Assembly: GCF_013004595.1 (NCBI RefSeq)
Contig: NZ_JABEMC010000001.1
Span: 62,001-126,000, forward strand
From: Brevibacterium luteolum
GTDB taxonomy: Bacteria; Actinomycetota; Actinomycetes; Actinomycetales; Brevibacteriaceae
Length of the DNA stretch: 64,000 bases
Direction: 5' to 3'
Part shown: piece by piece, positions 46,602-64,000 of the stretch
Layout of the letters: the number at the start of each line of letters is the position of its first letter
Numbering within the stretch: position 1 is the first letter of the stretch
Translations under genes and position numbers: made by a program
Notes under the pieces: model-generated
Databases searched by the model: none
What the model saw: only the letters and a program-made list of their open reading frames with translations
Told to the model about the DNA's origin: nothing

Positions 46602-47366
46602 CTAGAGCCAGTCCTGCATCGGCCAGTATCCCCAGCGGGAGTGGAAGAGCGCGGCATTGGCGCGGATCGCCTCCCGGTTGCCTGCCGCAGCGTGGCTGGG
46701 CGGATGCCACTGGTGGAAGGCATCAGCGCCGCCGGTCCACAGCATCGGGATCCGGTGGGCACGCAGCTGCATGCCGAAGTCGGTGTCCTCCCCACCGTAT
46801 CCGCGGTAGTCCTCACTGAACCCGCCGAAGGCCTCCCGGCAGTCCCGCCACAGCCGGGCGGTGAGGGCGAAGGACAGTGACCAGAACAGCTGGTACTCAT
46901 CTTCAGCGGCCGCCTGCATGACCCCGTCCGCCGGGGCCGGCCGGCCCGGGTGCGGATTGCGGTATCCGGTGAGCGCGTCGAGCGTCTCCGCGGTGACCGG
47001 CTGGTCCTCACGCAGGTAGGTGACCGGCCCGCAGGCCACCGCGTCCGGGCGCTCGGCCAGTGCTGCGGTATAGCGGTCGATGAGACGTGGGCCGGGCAGG
47101 CAGTCGGCGTCGAGGAACACGATGACTTCAGCCCCGGCATCGGCTGCGTAGTCGCCTGCCATGTTGCGGGCGCGAGCGAGCTCCAGCCGGCCGGGCGCGG
47201 TGGCATCGAGCACCGTCGAGCCGTCCAGCTCGAAGAGACTCTCGCCGATCGCCACAGTCGTGTGGTCGGCCGCCGGTGCCCAGCGGGCAAGTGCCGCGCG
47301 CTGCAGGCGCACCCGCTCGGCCCGGTCGGCGGAGGCCAGGGTGACGACGTGGACGGCCGGCCTCAC
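46602..47366 (-). CDS. Family 2 glycosyltransferase
   Basis: The 254-residue protein has a GT-A fold: FLDADCLPGPRL (the DXD-type motif at about residues 85-95), a donor-side segment GPVTYLREDQPVTAETL, and the C-terminal galactosyltransferase-like motif FGGFSEDYRGYGGEDTDFGMQ with the catalytic Asp/Glu. It ends HQWHPPSH. The ATG overlaps the stop of the gene upstream (ATGA). Last gene of a four-gene minus-strand unit of glycosyltransferases. Donor and acceptor cannot be read from sequence; the GGED motif is shared with the family 2 enzyme on the other arm of the cluster. Confidence 0.75.
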   Translation of the reverse strand: MRPAVHVVTLASADRAERVRLQRAALARWAPAADHTTVAIGESLFELDGSTVLDATAPGRLELARARNMAGDYAADAGAEVIVFLDADCLPGPRLIDRYTAALAERPDAVACGPVTYLREDQPVTAETLDALTGYRNPHPGRPAPADGVMQAAAEDEYQLFWSLSFALTARLWRDCREAFGGFSEDYRGYGGEDTDFGMQLRAHRIPMLWTGGADAFHQWHPPSHAAAGNREAIRANAALFHSRWGYWPMQDWL

Positions 47367-48349
47367 GGGGCGCCTTCCACCGGTGGATGGTGTGCCGCCC
47401 GGCTGCGGTCGGCGACCGCGAGGATCTCACGTGCCGCCCGGCCTGCCGCCCCGGCCGTCTGCCAGCGGCTCCACTCCGGCTGCCGGGACCCGGCGGCGGC
47501 CACGATCTCAGGCCACACCTCGGGCGCGGGCAGCTCCGTGACGACCTCGGCCAGCCCGGCATCGGCGAGCACAGCAGCGGTCGCGGCCTGCTCGTCATAT
47601 GGCCGCTGCTGGGGCACGATGACCGCCGGGCGGTTCGCGCAGGCGATGTCGGCGATCGCGTTCTGCCCGCCGGCGGAGATGACGACCGAGGCACCGGCCA
47701 GGTCGGCATACGGGTCCTCGCGCCACGACTCGGGTCCCAGCAGCCGGCAGCCGGGTCCGAGGTGGTGCTGGACCTGCTGCCAGTAACCGGCCGGAGCATC
47801 GGCCCCGCCGCGGCCGAGCAGGATGACCGGCCCATGCTGATCCGCGGCCGGTCTGCGGCCGGCGAACCGGGAGATCCCGCCGACAGCGATGACCTTTCCG
47901 GCATGTGTGCGCAGGTGCTCGGGCAGCCTGACCCAGTCGGGCCAGGCGGCGATGATCGACTCGCACATCTGGTAGCCGAGTCGGTGGGCGGCATCATTCC
48001 GGACGCCGGGCATCGCCAGGGTGGTGACCGGCACACCGAGCAGCCTGAGGAACACGGCGACCTCGACGGACACGTCGACGTGGACGGCCCGCGGCTGGGC
48101 CTCTGCCACCCAGGCGGCCAGAGCCGCCATCCGCGCGCGCAGGCCCGGGTGGTCGCGCGGCACCCAGTGCAGCGCCCCGCCGGCGGTGACATCGGCCCCG
48201 CGCTCCTCGGCCGGGGCGTCGAGCGGCAGCCCGATGTCCGCGCGCGGATGCGAGGACAGGATGACCGTCTCCTCGGGGATCTCAGCGGCGATCGCCTGGC
48301 AGCGGAAGAGATGGCCGGTGCCGTGATGGTGAGCGTAGAAGCCGATCAT
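47363..48349 (-). CDS. GT-B glycosyltransferase (MurG/UGT-like)
   Basis: The protein has 328 residues. The N-terminus is IGFYAHHHGTGHLFRCQAI, the loop pattern of MurG/GT28 enzymes. Two Rossmann halves follow, and the C-terminal donor-binding part is SVVISAGGQNAIADIACANRPAVIVPQQRPYDEQ (in pieces), with the usual Gly and Gln residues for the nucleotide sugar. It should transfer a sugar in the cytosol. Both ends overlap neighbouring genes by ATGA, so all four minus-strand enzymes are coupled. Confidence 0.7.
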   Translation of the reverse strand: MIGFYAHHHGTGHLFRCQAIAAEIPEETVILSSHPRADIGLPLDAPAEERGADVTAGGALHWVPRDHPGLRARMAALAAWVAEAQPRAVHVDVSVEVAVFLRLLGVPVTTLAMPGVRNDAAHRLGYQMCESIIAAWPDWVRLPEHLRTHAGKVIAVGGISRFAGRRPAADQHGPVILLGRGGADAPAGYWQQVQHHLGPGCRLLGPESWREDPYADLAGASVVISAGGQNAIADIACANRPAVIVPQQRPYDEQAATAAVLADAGLAEVVTELPAPEVWPEIVAAAGSRQPEWSRWQTAGAAGRAAREILAVADRSRAAHHPPVEGAP

Positions 48350-49419
48350 GAGATGAGCTCGGCGGCGACGCGTCCGGTGCCGATGACCTCGCTGTACAGC
48401 CGCAGGTAGCCTGTGACCATGTGCCGGCAGTCGAACCGGGTGACCGCCATCCGGCGGGCGCGGGCGCGGTCGAAGCGTCGAGCCCGGCCGATTGCTGCGG
48501 CGAGATCGTCGACATCGCCGGGACGGGCGAGCAGTTCGGGGGCGTCGGCGAGCACCTCGGGAATCCCGCCGCGGGCGAACGCGGCCACCGGGGTGCCGCA
48601 GGACAGCGACTCGATCGTCACGAGCCCGAAAGGCTCATCCCAGCAGGGGGTGACGACCGTGACCGCAGCCGCCCCAACCTCGGCGGCGATCTGCGCGTCG
48701 TCGAGATGCCCGACCCACAGAGCGTCATCGCCTAGGCGCGGCTCGATTTCGGTGGTGAAGTAGCGCGGTTCGGCGCAGCGGCCGATGATGCGCAGCGGCA
48801 CACCGGCAGCCCTGCAGGCATCGATGGCAAGGTGCAGGCCCTTCTCCGGGGTGATGCGGCCGAACCACACGGCATGATCCCCGCCCGGGCCAGCGGCGAA
48901 GGTGCGGGTGTCGACGCCGTTGTGGACGACGGTGGCCGGTTCGGGCAGCTGCCACTGCCCGGCGGTGAAGGCGCTGACCGCAGCGAACGAACCGGCGCTG
49001 CTGCCAGCCCGGCTGATCGCCTCATCCAGGGGCGCCCCCGGCGGCACGTGCAGGGTGGTGAGCATCGGCACCCGGCCGGAGGCACCGGAGAAGAACGCCG
49101 GGCTGACCGAGTTGTTGTGGATGAGGTCGTAGGGTCCGTCCTGCAGGCGCTCGAACAGCTGCCGGTAGGCGGTGTGCTCGATGTCCTGGGCGCCGGGCGG
49201 GTAGGCGTCGTCGCGGGCGATGTGCTCATGCCCCGTCCAGTCGATGCCCGGCAGCTCGAACTCCTGCCGGTGACCGCGTGAGCCAGCCGAGGCGTACAGG
49301 TCGACCTGCACGCCCGCCTCGCGCAGCCCGGTGGTCAGCCGGTCGCAGAACACCTCGAGTCCCCCGCCGAAGGGCGGGGTGATGGGCATGCGGGCAGGCC
49401 CGACGACGGCGACGCGCAT
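48346..49419 (-). CDS. Family 4 glycosyltransferase
   Basis: This 357-residue GT-B enzyme has the GT4 landmarks: the N-terminal glycine-rich loop PPFGGGLEVFCDRL, the acceptor region YDLIHNNSVSP, FGRITPEKGLHLAIDAC in the hinge, and the donor-binding EPFGLVTIESLSCGTPVAAF (E-x7-E motif). It is a retaining transferase that uses an NDP-sugar. Start and stop overlap the neighbouring genes by four bases. The start is ATG 49419. Confidence 0.8.
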   Translation of the reverse strand: MRVAVVGPARMPITPPFGGGLEVFCDRLTTGLREAGVQVDLYASAGSRGHRQEFELPGIDWTGHEHIARDDAYPPGAQDIEHTAYRQLFERLQDGPYDLIHNNSVSPAFFSGASGRVPMLTTLHVPPGAPLDEAISRAGSSAGSFAAVSAFTAGQWQLPEPATVVHNGVDTRTFAAGPGGDHAVWFGRITPEKGLHLAIDACRAAGVPLRIIGRCAEPRYFTTEIEPRLGDDALWVGHLDDAQIAAEVGAAAVTVVTPCWDEPFGLVTIESLSCGTPVAAFARGGIPEVLADAPELLARPGDVDDLAAAIGRARRFDRARARRMAVTRFDCRHMVTGYLRLYSEVIGTGRVAAELIS

Positions 49420-50519
49420 CAGCTGCCGTCCTCGGTGAGGAACATCGCCGGTGTCGCCACCGCCGCAGCAGCACTCCTCGGGGCCATGGCCTGCGCATAC
49501 GCGTCCGCGTAGGCCTGCTGGGCTGCCGGCGCCCGGTCAGCGACATCCCCGCGGGCGATGCGCCCGCGCCTGATCGCCCACACCGCGGCCTCGGCCGCTG
49601 CGGCACCGCTGCCGGTGCGATAGGTGCGCACCGCCTCGGGCGCGTCCGCCTGACCGGCATAGTGTCCGCAGTCGGGGGCGATGACGCTCAGACCCAGGTC
49701 GCGGCACATCTCCAGCCAACCCGAATGCGTCCCATGCGCATATGGCAGCACCGATACAGCGCACCCCGAGAGCGCCCGGTAGAGCACAGCATCCGGGAGT
49801 CGGGCTGTCAGATGCAGGTCGAGGCCCGGTGCGGCACCGGAGTCGGCGGCAGCCTGCAGGGCAGTCACCGTCGGGTGTGCGGCACTCGACCGGTGCGCCC
49901 ACACCTCCAGCCATGCCCCGGACCGGTGCAGACCTGAAGCCAGCGACAGGTAGAACGCCGGGTCGGTGACGACGTTGGTGCGCAGATCCTTGAGGAACAC
50001 GGCCGCCGAGCGCCCGCGCCGGCCGCTGGCGGTCATGATCTGGGCGGCTTGGGCGGCTGGGACGATCGGCGGGTGGGCGATGACGTCGGCGGAGACGTCG
50101 TAGTCGGCGGCCAGTTCGGCTGCCGCGCCCGAGGTGAGGGTGAAGACTGCAGCGGCAGCGGCGGTGAGTGCGCGCAGCCGGTCGCGATGCGCACGCTGAT
50201 CTCTCAGGTGCGGGTTGGCCAGATCGTGGACGGTGACGACGAGCGCTGCGTGGGCATCAGCGCAGGCGCCGATGAAGTCGCGGATCTGTGCGAGACTGCG
50301 ATGCTCGAACCCGAAGTGGACGTGGACGATGTCGAACTCGCCGGCGTGCGCCCGGATCCAGTCGGCCTCCAGCCCGGGGTGCGGATGCCAGCCTTCGCCG
50401 ACAGGCAGCTGAGCGGGCCTGACGGGTTCGGCAGTCGGCGGCCAGGTGGCATCGACGAATGGGTGCTGGGCAGGGATGGAGAGAACTCGGGGGCGAGCGT
50501 CGAGCTCCGGAGTCTTCAT
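49419..50519 (-). CDS. GT-B type glycosyltransferase, degenerate GT4-like
   Basis: I start at ATG 50519 (MKTPELDARPRVL), giving 366 residues; the in-frame extension upstream lacks support. The N-terminal domain has FDIVHVHFGFEHRS and LVVTVHDLANPHLRD, as in GT4 enzymes. The C-terminal domain has VFLKDLRTN in place of the usual sugar-binding loop, and a weak EX7E (LEMCRDLGLSV). It is therefore a divergent member. First gene of the minus-strand unit of four glycosyltransferases. A 196-bp region separates it from the divergent plus-strand unit. Confidence 0.6.
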   Translation of the reverse strand: MKTPELDARPRVLSIPAQHPFVDATWPPTAEPVRPAQLPVGEGWHPHPGLEADWIRAHAGEFDIVHVHFGFEHRSLAQIRDFIGACADAHAALVVTVHDLANPHLRDQRAHRDRLRALTAAAAAVFTLTSGAAAELAADYDVSADVIAHPPIVPAAQAAQIMTASGRRGRSAAVFLKDLRTNVVTDPAFYLSLASGLHRSGAWLEVWAHRSSAAHPTVTALQAAADSGAAPGLDLHLTARLPDAVLYRALSGCAVSVLPYAHGTHSGWLEMCRDLGLSVIAPDCGHYAGQADAPEAVRTYRTGSGAAAAEAAVWAIRRGRIARGDVADRAPAAQQAYADAYAQAMAPRSAAAAVATPAMFLTEDGS

Positions 50520-50715
50520 CGCCGAACCGGCCTTTCCAATGGAGTCAGCTGCATGCGTGCAGCGCGGTCGCCGCAGCAAGCAACTCGTGCACCTGCGTAA
50601 GCGAGGACAAGAAAGCTTGTCGGTGCCGGTGCAGGGTAAGGTGACTTGATGGTATCACCGTGCGGCGCCGATCCGGTTCCGCATACATGATTCCGGGTCA
50701 GAGTCGAGGTGAACA

Positions 50716-51702
50716 GTGGACGCACATGCCGTTGAGCACATTCTCACCGGCCCGCCTGCCCACGGAGTGATCCGATTCGGGCGACATCTGCACCAGGCTT
50801 TGGGACAGGGGTTCGTTCGTGAGGCTCTCAACCCGGCGCAGCTGCCGGCCCCGGCTGCCGACGCCGAGCTCGTCCACATCAGCTTCACCGACCACCTCTG
50901 CGGCCCCGACCCGCAAACCGCTGTCGACACAGTGCTGCGCCTGGCCGCCGGTCGGCTGCTGAGCTTGACTCTGCACGACATCCCGCAGCCTGGCGAGGGT
51001 GCTGATCGCTGCGCCCGCCGGCAGGCGGCCTACCTCAGGCTCGTGCGCGCCGCTGACGTCGTGGTGACGAATTCTGAGTCTGAAGCCCGCCGGCTGGAAT
51101 CCGCCGGGGCCATCCACGTCGTGCCCCTGCCGATCGAAGCACCGCGTCCGCTGGCTGCAGCTCCCGGCCCACCGACGGCCGGATCTTCAGACGGGGGTAT
51201 CCCGGTCATCGGCATCTTCGGGTTCGTCTACCCCGGCAAGGGCTGCGAGGACGTCATCGACGCGGCTCCGGCCGGGACCCGCATCCTGCTGCTCGGAGAC
51301 GTCGCTGACGGCCACGCCGGCTACCTTGCCGGGCTGCGCTCGCGGGCGGCAGAGCGCGGCATCGACCTGCAGTGCACCGGCTACATCCCCGACACCGAAC
51401 TCCCAGCCGCCCTCGATGCGGTCACCGTGCCGGTCTGCGCCCACCGCCACGTCTCCGCCTCCGGCTCCCTCAACACCTGGATCGCCCATAACCGGGTGCC
51501 GCTGACCACCATCTCGGACTACACGACCGAAGTCGCCGCGCGCTGGCCGGGCCGGCTGCGCCTCTGCACGCCCAGCACCCTTGCCGAGGCACTCGCCGCC
51601 GCCTGCTGCACACCCGCGTCGACATGGGCTGACACACCCCCTCCGGATTGGGGCTGGGCTGAGGTCGCCGCCGCCTACCGCCGTATCTGGAGCACCGTAT
51701 GA
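50716..51702 (+). CDS. GT-B type glycosyltransferase, degenerate GT4-like
   Basis: The 328-residue protein starts at GTG 50716, preceded by GAGGTGAACA. Like the first gene of the opposite unit, it resembles a GT4 enzyme: LVHISFTDHLCG, SLTLHDIPQPGEG, VVVTNSESEARRLE, then IGIFGFVYPGKGCEDVI and LLLGDVADG in the donor half. The EX7E pattern is not clear. It and the enzyme at 49419-50519 are similar in their HD and TNSES/TLTSG motifs and may be paralogues. It overlaps the next gene by ATGA. Confidence 0.6.
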   Translation: MDAHAVEHILTGPPAHGVIRFGRHLHQALGQGFVREALNPAQLPAPAADAELVHISFTDHLCGPDPQTAVDTVLRLAAGRLLSLTLHDIPQPGEGADRCARRQAAYLRLVRAADVVVTNSESEARRLESAGAIHVVPLPIEAPRPLAAAPGPPTAGSSDGGIPVIGIFGFVYPGKGCEDVIDAAPAGTRILLLGDVADGHAGYLAGLRSRAAERGIDLQCTGYIPDTELPAALDAVTVPVCAHRHVSASGSLNTWIAHNRVPLTTISDYTTEVAARWPGRLRLCTPSTLAEALAAACCTPASTWADTPPPDWGWAEVAAAYRRIWSTV

Positions 51703-53069
51703 CAGCCCCGTCCGTGTCCGTCATCATCCCCTACTACGAGAATCCGACAGGGCTGAGCGCGGTGCTCGCCGGGATCAGCGCGCAGGAATACACAGGCGAC
51801 ATCGAGATCATCGTCGCCGACGACGGCTCGGCCACCGCGCCCGAGGTGCCGGCCGGCGTGCGACTCGTCCGCCAGGACGACCGGGGCTTCCGTGCCGCAG
51901 CCGCCCGCAACCTCGGTGCCGCGCACGCCAGCGGGACGATCCTCGTCTTTCTCGACGGCGATACGATCCCGCAGCCTGGCTGCATCGCCGCCCTGGCAGA
52001 GGCGCTCGTCGAGGAGCCGTGGACGCTGGCCGTCGGCAGCCGCCGCATGCTCGACACCGACACTACTCCGCCGACCGACCTCGGCGAACCTGCCTGGCTC
52101 ACCCGCGCCTGGACGGACACGTCGGACCTGCAGCGCATCGACGACACCGGCTTCCGGTTCATCATCTCCGCCGTCCTCGCCCTCACCCGCGAGCTGTTCG
52201 AGACGATCGGCGGGTTCGACGCAGGCTTCATCGGCTACGGCGGCGAGGACTGGGAACTCGCCTGGCAGGCCCGCCTGGCCGGCGCAGACTACCGGCACCT
52301 CCCGCACGCCCTTGCCCACCACCTCGGCGGCGACTGGGCCCACCGCTGGGGTGCAGACACCGCCGGCAAGCGCGCGGAGAAGAACGCCGAGTCGATGGCA
52401 CTGGCCGCCAGCATCACGCATCCGATCATGCGCCCTGCCGGCATCGTCTTCGCAGTCCCCGACATCCTCGTCCACCTGCCGAGCAGCGGCGACACGGGCT
52501 GCGACGTCGCCGCGATCACCGCGCTGTTGGCCGCCGGCGACGTGCACGTCGTGGTCACCGCAGGCCAGGGCGCTGCTGCAACCGGCCCCGAGATGCCGGG
52601 CGTCTTCGCCGCCGACCCGCGGGTCCACGATGTGGTTCCGGAATGGAGCCGGGCCCGCCCACGCTTCGATGTCTGTGCACACCGGGCTTTCTGCCCCGGA
52701 CCGGGCGAGCTGCAGGCAGTGTGCGAAGCAGCCGCCATGGCCGAGCGCTGCGCGACGGTGACCGATAGCACCGGTCAGCTCTACGCTGAGATCCGGCCGG
52801 CTCGCGCGGTGGCACTGGCGGCCCGCGGCCCGCGGCACAGGCGGGGGAACAAGCCGCAGCCCGGATCCGAACCCGGGCTGCGGCTCGTGCGGCAATGGGC
52901 CCTCCCTCCGGCCCTGCTGGCGCTCGAGGACACGTGGCGTCAGGCTGCCGAAGAGGAGCTGAAAGGGTGCCAGGCGGGAATCAGCGTGGGTGAGCCTGGG
53001 TCAGCTGACGGCTTCGTCGTAGGCGCTGACGAGGTCAGTGGTGAGGCCGACGGACTTCTCAGTCGTTGA
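51699..53069 (+). CDS. Family 2 glycosyltransferase with possible read-through tail
   Basis: The frame gives 456 residues from ATG 51699. The GT-A domain is at residues 1-230: VSVIIPYYENPTGLSAVL, ADDGSA, FLDGDTIPQPG (DXD) and GGFDAGFIGYGGEDWEL. An alpha/beta region to about 385 may be a second domain (ILVHLPSSGDTGCDVAAI). The last about 70 residues run through a strong hairpin (52852-52885) and overlap the convergent lipoprotein gene by 69 bases, and their composition is unlike the rest. The original stop was therefore probably near 52850 and has been lost by mutation or frame change. Confidence 0.65.
   Translation: MTAPSVSVIIPYYENPTGLSAVLAGISAQEYTGDIEIIVADDGSATAPEVPAGVRLVRQDDRGFRAAAARNLGAAHASGTILVFLDGDTIPQPGCIAALAEALVEEPWTLAVGSRRMLDTDTTPPTDLGEPAWLTRAWTDTSDLQRIDDTGFRFIISAVLALTRELFETIGGFDAGFIGYGGEDWELAWQARLAGADYRHLPHALAHHLGGDWAHRWGADTAGKRAEKNAESMALAASITHPIMRPAGIVFAVPDILVHLPSSGDTGCDVAAITALLAAGDVHVVVTAGQGAAATGPEMPGVFAADPRVHDVVPEWSRARPRFDVCAHRAFCPGPGELQAVCEAAAMAERCATVTDSTGQLYAEIRPARAVALAARGPRHRRGNKPQPGSEPGLRLVRQWALPPALLALEDTWRQAAEEELKGCQAGISVGEPGSADGFVVGADEVSGEADGLLSR
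52852..52885. terminator. Hairpin inside the annotated end of the plus-strand glycosyltransferase
   Basis: AGCCGCAGCCCGG (52852-52864) pairs perfectly with CCGGGCTGCGGCT (52873-52885) around an eight-base loop. It looks like a terminator stem but lies in the coding frame. It would end the plus-strand unit and might also act on the convergent lipoprotein transcript. Confidence 0.55.
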
Positions 53070-53744
53070 GTCGTGCAGGGCGGAGCCGGTGACGAGCCCG
53101 TTCTTGACCACGGCTGAGACTGTGTGCTGCTCTGTGCCCGGAGCCATTGGGCTCGTGGCGACGGTCTCGACTGCCTGGCCGGCGCCGGGGATGTCGACGA
53201 CGTCAACAGACATCTCCATCTCGATGCGCTCTCCAGCCACTGTCATCGTCATGTTCGAGCAGGTGGAGTTCGTGTCGATCATGTTCTGCAGTGCCGCAGC
53301 GGCATCATCGTCCGTCTCATATGAGGCGATCGCCGCCGTGTAGCCATTGTCGTCGCTCAGCGCCGACGTGTTCGGGACATCGGCAGAGGGCTTGGTCACG
53401 AGCTCGATGAGGACGTCTTGGCAGGCGGCTGGTTCGACGTCGGCCTGTTTGAACTGCTCGATTGCGCTCTGCACCTCCGGCGGCTCCGCATCGATGGTCG
53501 CAAAGCTCTTCCCGTCGTACGTCAGCCCGTTGAGCACTGTGGCAAGCTCGTCTTCGTTCAGCTGCTTGAGGGCATCGTCTGCGGGCGCGGAGGTCTCCTC
53601 AGCGGGCTGCGCAGTGCCGCCCCCGGCCTGTTCGGCGGACTTGTCCGCTGCGCCGGAACCGCCGGAGCATGCAGAGAGGACGAGGGCTATTCCGGCTGAT
53701 GCAGCAAAACCGGCGGCCAGCCGAAAGGGGGATGGGTGTTCCAT
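53001..53744 (-). CDS. Secreted lipoprotein, function unknown
   Basis: The protein has 247 residues from ATG 53744. The signal peptide (about 1-27) ends in the lipobox LSAC, followed by a Ser/Gly/Ala/Glu-rich linker. Mature segments are LNEDELATVLNGLTYDG, a likely disulfide pair (ACQDVL and NSTCSNM), and TVAGERIEMEMSVDVV with strand-helix alternation. It resembles the small DUF-type extracytoplasmic lipoproteins of actinobacteria (similar in layout to mycobacterial LppX/LpqN-like proteins, but not assignable). Its 3' end overlaps the glycosyltransferase frame. Function not known. Confidence 0.7.
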   Translation of the reverse strand: MEHPSPFRLAAGFAASAGIALVLSACSGGSGAADKSAEQAGGGTAQPAEETSAPADDALKQLNEDELATVLNGLTYDGKSFATIDAEPPEVQSAIEQFKQADVEPAACQDVLIELVTKPSADVPNTSALSDDNGYTAAIASYETDDDAAAALQNMIDTNSTCSNMTMTVAGERIEMEMSVDVVDIPGAGQAVETVATSPMAPGTEQHTVSAVVKNGLVTGSALHDSTTEKSVGLTTDLVSAYDEAVS

Positions 53745-53874
53745 GCGGTGCTCCTGGCGTGAGGCGGGTGCTGTGATCCTCAGCTTAAAGGGCGGAACCG
53801 GGAGGGGACAACGAGGTTCTGTTGCAGTCCTGCGACAGCCGGTTTCTGCTGCTGCCTGCCATACACTGAAGGAT

Positions 53875-54465
53875 ATGATTTCCGAACTCAACCGCGAGAG
53901 CACCGCCCTGGTCCTCGTCGACATCCAGAACGACTTCTGCGAAGGCGGCGCCCTCGGGGTCGAGGGTGGGACGGAAGTGGCCCGCCGGGTCGCCGACTTC
54001 GTCACCGCGCATCGGGACGACTACGCCCGCATCGTCGCCACCGCTGACTGGCACATCGATCCCGGCGATCACTTCTCCGACCGCCCCGACTTCATCAGCA
54101 CCTGGCCGGTCCACTGCGTGGCCGGCACCGACGGTGCTGCTTTCCACCCCGAGCTCAGACCGGCCATCGACAGCGTCGATGCGGTCTTCCGCAAAGGTGA
54201 GTACGCGGCGGCCTATTCGGGATTCGAAGGCCATCTCACCGATGACGACTCGGTCATGCTCGCCGACTGGCTGCGGGCAGAGGGGATCCGCTCGATCGTC
54301 GTGTGCGGCATCGCCACCGATCACTGCGTGCGCGCCACCGTGCTCGACGGCCGCGATGAGGGCTTCGCCGTCCGGGTGCTCGTCAATCTTGTCGCCGGCG
54401 TCGATGAGAACCGGTCTGCCGAAGCGCTGCAGGAGATGAACGCCGCCGGCGCCGAACTCTCCTGA
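53875..54465 (+). CDS. pncA: Nicotinamidase / pyrazinamidase
   Basis: The protein has 196 residues from ATG 53875 with GAAGGAT upstream. The catalytic triad of the isochorismatase-like family is present: Asp16 (LVDIQNDFCEGG), Lys107 (FRKGEYAAAYSGF) and Cys151 (IATDHCVRA). The metal-binding segment is DWHIDPGDHF, with the order DXHXXXH. It hydrolyses nicotinamide to nicotinate for NAD salvage. It stands alone, preceded by a -10-like TACACT at about 53862. Confidence 0.9.
   Translation: MISELNRESTALVLVDIQNDFCEGGALGVEGGTEVARRVADFVTAHRDDYARIVATADWHIDPGDHFSDRPDFISTWPVHCVAGTDGAAFHPELRPAIDSVDAVFRKGEYAAAYSGFEGHLTDDDSVMLADWLRAEGIRSIVVCGIATDHCVRATVLDGRDEGFAVRVLVNLVAGVDENRSAEALQEMNAAGAELS

Positions 54466-61306: not shown

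Positions 61307-64000
<2,694 letters not shown>

Follow-up and report, generated by a model that had tools for sequence, protein, structure and literature searches.

A conserved actinobacterial glycosyltransferase cluster with WcbI as a seventh partner, possibly part of a modular pathway for a decorated cytosolic oligosaccharide

The intracellular glycans and glycosylated cofactors of the actinobacteria, such as mycothiol, mycofactocin and the polymethylated polysaccharides, have repeatedly proved to be physiologically important. A PIG-L deacetylase, MshB, is linked in mycothiol synthesis, and the chitooligosaccharides of Nod factors are decorated by the deacetylase NodB and then by the methyltransferase NodS. 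Other described systems that bear comparison with the locus considered here are the mycobacterial methylmannose polysaccharide cluster of meT1, mmpH, pmeT3 and manT (PMC9883506), the oligo-glycosylation of mycofactocin by MftF (PMC7491314), the chondroitin synthase K4CP (PDB 2z87) and the WcbI protein of the Burkholderia capsule (PMC4104973, PDB 4bqn), in whose solved structure the residues in contact with the acetyl group are Cys14 and His201. The current report is concerned with six glycosyltransferase genes in a 64,000-nucleotide stretch of Brevibacterium luteolum DNA (positions 62,001 to 126,000 of contig NZ_JABEMC010000001.1), which we refer to as the window. The genes are named in coordinate order A, B, C and D on the minus strand (46602-50519) and E and F on the plus strand (50716-53069), and they come from the genome of a Brevibacterium near B. 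gallinarum (96% identity in the B protein). A preliminary description of the window had treated these six genes by themselves as the functional unit. Comparisons with relatives indicate that they are almost certainly part of a conserved pathway that also includes WcbI, a CoA-binding putative acyltransferase. Our broader reading, which we hold at slightly less than even confidence, is that the cluster might supply the glycosyltransferases for a modular pathway of actinobacteria that makes a decorated, short oligosaccharide of the cytosol.

The six ORFs are all present at the coordinates first given for them, and the search for the same gene set in other bacteria that had been proposed with them was rewarding. 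With one genome taken per species, the divergent six-gene order proved to be common to Corynebacterium, Kocuria and Brevibacterium (including G011, G029 and G032), and since the same order is kept in other genera a chance arrangement is excluded. The genus Rhodococcoides has the same divergent arrangement without C, and in Corynebacterium E and F form one fused protein; genes at the related loci were called by a simple codon-usage caller, with uncertainty over some of the starts and fusions. Many actinobacteria have only D-C-B-A at the locus, and these gene orders split the cluster into two separable blocks, with D-C-B-A as the core and E-F as an extension that may be absent. In nearly all of the six-gene and Rhodococcoides-type cassettes of the relatives, D and E are separated by an additional gene that encodes ~310 aa. 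Its product is WcbI (176-215 bits for PF18588, against a cut-off of 29) and matches the solved structure 4bqn; the cysteine of a GNCQ motif and the histidine of an NHP motif are conserved in 25 of 25 sequences, and by motif position, as distinct from residue-level alignment, they appear to be the acetyl-contacting residues. In the window genome, wcbI is missing at the cassette and is found instead on another contig (G000:C3:18621-19220). A unit of six glycosyltransferases alone is therefore too narrow a view of this system.

The distribution of these genes adds an indication of how the pathway might be ordered. In a single set of 395 genomes from the class, B is carried by 54, E by 23 and the cassette-type WcbI by 18, and the sets are nested: WcbI is never seen in a genome without E, nor E in one without B (hypergeometric p=1.7e-17 for WcbI within B, a value that ignores shared ancestry). 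Because the sets are nested, they suggest an ordered pathway in which the core acts first, E-F next and the acylation last.

More of the pathway is likely to reside on contig C3 of the same genome. At this locus (L087:7278-11517), wcbI is divergent from an operon of three genes that encode a GT2 glycosyltransferase, an acyl-CoA-dehydrogenase-like (ACAD-like) flavoprotein and a fusion of a PIG-L deacetylase domain with a NodS-family methyltransferase domain in a single protein, and it lies 838 bases from the ACAD-like match. The search of other contigs for further parts of the pathway covered the families that were tested. Genes of this trio adjoin the cassette itself in genomes G140, G237, G357 and G325 (in G140 and G325 the fusion is seen only as its methyltransferase half), and in G187 all ten genes occur in one contiguous block (locus L121). 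The ACAD-like gene and B occur together in 30 genomes, compared with 10.3 expected (p=5e-11, again ignoring shared ancestry). We consider it probable from these linkages that the trio belongs to the pathway, which would then consist of about ten genes and is apparently an undescribed one with a patchy distribution in many actinobacterial families; no published description of the combined gene set was found in the open-access literature, in agreement with the original impression that no described system has these genes. Two genomes that belong to one genus also have, grouped near the GT2 and ACAD-like genes, an unassigned ORF of 235-252 aa, an ATP-dependent DNA ligase and a short-chain dehydrogenase (L093:1471-4756 and L125:15841-19081).

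The enzymes encoded by the cassette belong to several glycosyltransferase families, and hydropathy predicts no membrane segment in any of the six. Proteins A, B, C and F have Pfam matches above the cut-offs, and D and E have GT4 N-terminal domains that score below them. The recognition of two GGED-type family 2 enzymes in the preliminary description was sound: DxD and GGED/GAED motifs occur in A as well as in F and are kept in 38 of 38 homologues of A and 24 of 24 of F, and on the strength of their alignment (hhalign probability 99.7%) the two proteins are paralogues. Protein F (PF00535, 72 bits) has chondroitin synthase as its closest solved structure, to which A is related as well, and the best curated family for F is the mycofactocin glycosyltransferase MftF (TIGR03965, 92.1 bits against a cut-off of 280). 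Protein B matches PF04101 (29.6 bits, cut-off 22) and, weakly, the solved MurG, and its HHxGxGH motif is present in every aligned homologue. Protein C matches both PF00534 and PF13439 above cut-off and has the EX7E motif in 35 of 36 homologues; its closest solved relatives are the alpha-1,2-glucosyltransferase tll1591 (7fg9) and the UDP-glucose:tetrahydrobiopterin glucosyltransferase.

Proteins D and E had been suspected of being degenerate GT4-like paralogues, a view that is upheld as to paralogy and not as to degeneracy. The profiles of the two proteins match each other with an hhalign probability of 98.5% (E=1.5e-15) and match C only weakly (54.8% for D and 29.1% for E), making D and E paralogues of each other; the plus-strand arm E-F is, by these sequence relationships, a mirror of the minus-strand genes D and A. 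The EX7E catalytic motif is absent from both. Each has near-invariant motifs of its own (HxHFG, HDLxNPH and GTHSGWxE over 38 homologues of D; HDxPQ, YPGKG and SASGS over 24 homologues of E), and the AlphaFold2 models are confident (pLDDT 89.7 and 89.9, respectively), for which reasons we rejected the idea that these are dead proteins and regard them as conserved subfamilies of putative enzymes. The fold comparison that had been recommended for the two proteins places both among GT-B enzymes of family GT4, which are their top Foldseek matches. Among solved structures, the nearest are ManT, BshA, MshA and glycogen synthase for D and GlgM, SenB, PimB' and MshA for E, all at ~10-18% identity; the D profile, when compared directly with solved structures, gave one weak unrelated match only.

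The product that best fits this inventory is an O-acylated, probably N-methylated amino-oligosaccharide. Enzymes C, B, A and D would build up a core on an acceptor that is soluble or a small carrier; to this core E and F would add further sugars, and once these had acted WcbI would O-acylate the product. In the manner of NodB and NodS in Nod factor decoration, the PIG-L domain might deacetylate an N-acetyl sugar, whose freed amine the NodS-like domain would then methylate, and the flavoprotein might oxidise the sugar or the amine. The resemblance of the D and E models to enzymes that make intracellular products (ManT, MshA, BshA, GlgM and SenB) favours an oligosaccharide that stays inside the cell, and production in the cytosol fits because all six enzymes are soluble. 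For the end product itself, a cytosolic location seems to us an even proposition. More speculatively, it might be an intracellular stress protectant located as are mycothiol, the mycofactocin glycosides and the polymethylated polysaccharides.

The preliminary description had also stressed that no flippase, polymerase, ABC exporter, acyltransferase or nucleotide-sugar gene is present at the cluster, and none is recognised among the window ORFs that adjoin it. As regards transport and polymerisation, relatives give a similar picture. In a tally of the Pfam families of 133 flanking genes, the 25 commonest families include short-chain dehydrogenases, catalase and sigma factors, whereas flippases, polymerases and polysaccharide ABC exporters are absent from them; no family of exporters, polymerases or initiating transferases recurs beside the cassette across the more than 30 loci that were examined. 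Thus the flanks in relatives do not support a capsule locus with its exporter just outside the window, and neither export genes linked in relatives nor orthologues in a defined polysaccharide pathway, the findings named in advance as fatal to the first interpretation, came to light when they were looked for. The claim that the product must be made wholly in the cytosol is nonetheless stronger than these results permit, since one flippase match and five ABC-2-type matches elsewhere in the window genome, some of them near other glycosyltransferases, make lipid-linked export a possible route.

Such a route is the basis of the alternative that survives best, in which a lipid-linked oligosaccharide made at the inner face of the membrane is moved out by a general flippase or ABC exporter whose gene lies elsewhere, and ends as an O-acetylated glycolipid or cell-wall glycan. 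This alternative, possible although not the one that we favour, draws support from the unlinked exporter genes and from the studied relative of WcbI, which functions in capsule formation (PMC4104973), and also from a patchy spread, repeated horizontal transfer and optional decorating genes, all of which are typical of surface antigens. In a tree of concatenated A-D sequences the Brevibacterium copies fall in four separate places, with the window pair grouping with Kocuria and with Brevibacterium G011 and G029, a placement that we read, from the tree alone, as repeated horizontal transfer; E had no match in plasmid records. Against a surface glycan stand the lack of recurring export, polymerisation and initiation genes and a neighbourhood that is enriched in catalase instead. 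As a separate observation, the G011 cassette is flanked by a YoeB-type toxin gene (L043:2627-2884) and a BbrUII-like restriction gene (L043:11320-13488), flanks that are consistent with a variable island.

An improbable alternative is that the sugars decorate a small soluble metabolite or cofactor, such as a thiol or a pterin, after the pattern of mycothiol, mycofactocin and the pterin glucosides. It would accommodate the tetrahydrobiopterin glucosyltransferase near C, the leaning of F toward MftF (albeit below cut-off), the MshA-, BshA- and SenB-like folds of D and E, and the linked PIG-L deacetylase with its parallel in MshB. However, the loci have no recurrently linked aglycone gene, fold similarity to GT4 enzymes says little about the acceptor, and the radical SAM maturase of mycofactocin (TIGR03962) reaches no more than 57 bits in the window genome against a cut-off of 265, so that the mycofactocin pathway, for which F also scores below its cut-off, was rejected. 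It is very improbable that the glycan is built directly on a cytosolic protein, given that no adhesin, S-layer or other acceptor-protein gene recurs at the loci and that, to our knowledge, a deacetylase/N-methyltransferase and a flavoprotein are not usual in such systems, even though the enzymes are soluble, have no linked export and include GT2 members whose GT7C/GGED region is related to protein N-acetylgalactosaminyltransferases.

The idea of a cytosolic stress protectant derives from the genes that are often found near the pathway. Of 73 genomes, 14 have a catalase, usually the long type, no more than 10 kb away from B, WcbI or the ACAD-like gene (L121, L125, L100, L093, L126 and others), compared with 0.73 expected under uniform placement, and the 14 cases come from eight genera and five families. 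An ATP-dependent DNA ligase (L093 and L125) and a photolyase (L093) are also nearby, each in single genera. From this company a role in stress protection can be put forward tentatively. The most detailed form of the proposal, an undescribed intracellular glycan with a D-C-B-A core, an E-F extension, O-acylation by WcbI and an N-methylated, possibly N-oxidised amino sugar that acts with catalase in oxidative or stationary-phase protection, is unlikely to be right in every part.

A number of observations weigh against a decorated cytosolic oligosaccharide and its protective role. The gene comparisons identified no donor, acceptor or product, and the likeness of D and E to enzymes with intracellular products is generic at 10-18% identity. 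The only WcbI relative that has been studied acts in the synthesis of a capsule, which is an exported polymer, and it showed no acetyltransferase activity in vitro (PMC4104973). Of the 75 genomes that have the flavoprotein, 45 lack B, and so the trio also serves something else. The genomes compared are not independent, and the p-values overstate the case accordingly; single linked exporters could escape a flank tally in which only the 25 commonest families are displayed. The 14 catalase cases represent only eight genera, four of the cases being from one genus, and the sole catalase of the window genome is ~600 kb from the cassette.

The layout of the cassette is given in Table 1. The four-base overlaps reported earlier for all junctions are real for A/B, B/C and E/F, and C and D share a single base. 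In both Kocuria genomes, a GlgC-like nucleotidyltransferase gene adjoins the cassette, on opposite sides (L039:3243-4406 and L041:11899-13044), a hint of an NDP-glucose-type donor; since it is adjacent in these two only, we did not generalise it to a partner of the pathway. In the window, the 3' end of F overlaps the 3' end of a convergent ORF (53001-54005, weak PknH_C match) at 53001-53069. Elsewhere in the genome (L127, G000 contig C17:1726-12723), a group of genes for NeuB, a cytidylyltransferase, a polysialyltransferase-like protein, DUF6716, an ABC ATPase and a PMT-family mannosyltransferase is a possible locus for a sialic-acid-like surface polymer in Brevibacterium.

Table 1. Features of the glycosyltransferase cassette in window coordinates
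Feature	Coordinates	Strand	Description
A	46602..47366	-	GT2/GT7C glycosyltransferase, 254 aa; DxD and GGED motifs
B	47363..48349	-	GT28-type glycosyltransferase, MurG/YjiC-like C-terminal domain, 328 aa
C	48346..49419	-	Canonical GT4 glycosyltransferase, 357 aa
D	49419..50519	-	Divergent GT4-like, predicted GT-B fold, 366 aa from the ATG at 50519; EX7E replaced by GTHSGWxE
D/E divergent intergenic region	50520..50715		Site of wcbI in most cassette-bearing relatives
E	50716..51702	+	Divergent GT4-like, 328 aa, paralogue of D by sequence; SASGS where EX7E would stand; one protein with F in Corynebacterium
F	51699..53069	+	GT2/GT7C glycosyltransferase, 456 aa; DxD and GGED motifs; C-terminal extension

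These comparisons provide a predicted order of steps from the nested distribution, candidate genetic partners for WcbI, for which the CoA-binding fold is known, and a glycan context for the fused PIG-L/NodS-like enzyme. When set beside the systems already described, the cassette resembles each of them in part. Proteins A and F share the GT2 domain and GGED region of the chondroitin synthase K4CP, and differ from it in being separate single-domain proteins that have no linked capsule export genes. The WcbI homologue has the conserved Cys and His motifs of the Burkholderia protein, which is encoded in a capsule locus, whereas capsule export genes do not recur beside the cassette. Decoration by a deacetylase and then a NodS-family methyltransferase recalls the Nod factors, but here the two activities would be fused in one protein, the deacetylase is of the PIG-L and not the NodB family, and F matches NodC weakly. 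In the mycofactocin system of actinobacteria, a GT2 relative of F makes a chain of sugars on a soluble compound (PMC7491314), with the difference that F is far from the MftF cut-off and that no maturase exceeds its own. The methylmannose polysaccharide cluster (PMC9883506) has one GT4 enzyme, compared with six or seven glycosyltransferases of three families here, and it has O-methyltransferases and a hydrolase in place of WcbI, the deacetylase/NodS-like methyltransferase and the flavoprotein; the window cassette contains no methyltransferase or hydrolase, and the meT1-mmpH-pmeT3-manT set was not found there. On our reading both are nevertheless actinobacterial gene sets for a decorated oligo- or polysaccharide, with a GT4 enzyme of the ManT/MshA kind (D and E match ManT in fold only, at ~15% identity), decoration by methyltransferases and a scattered distribution.

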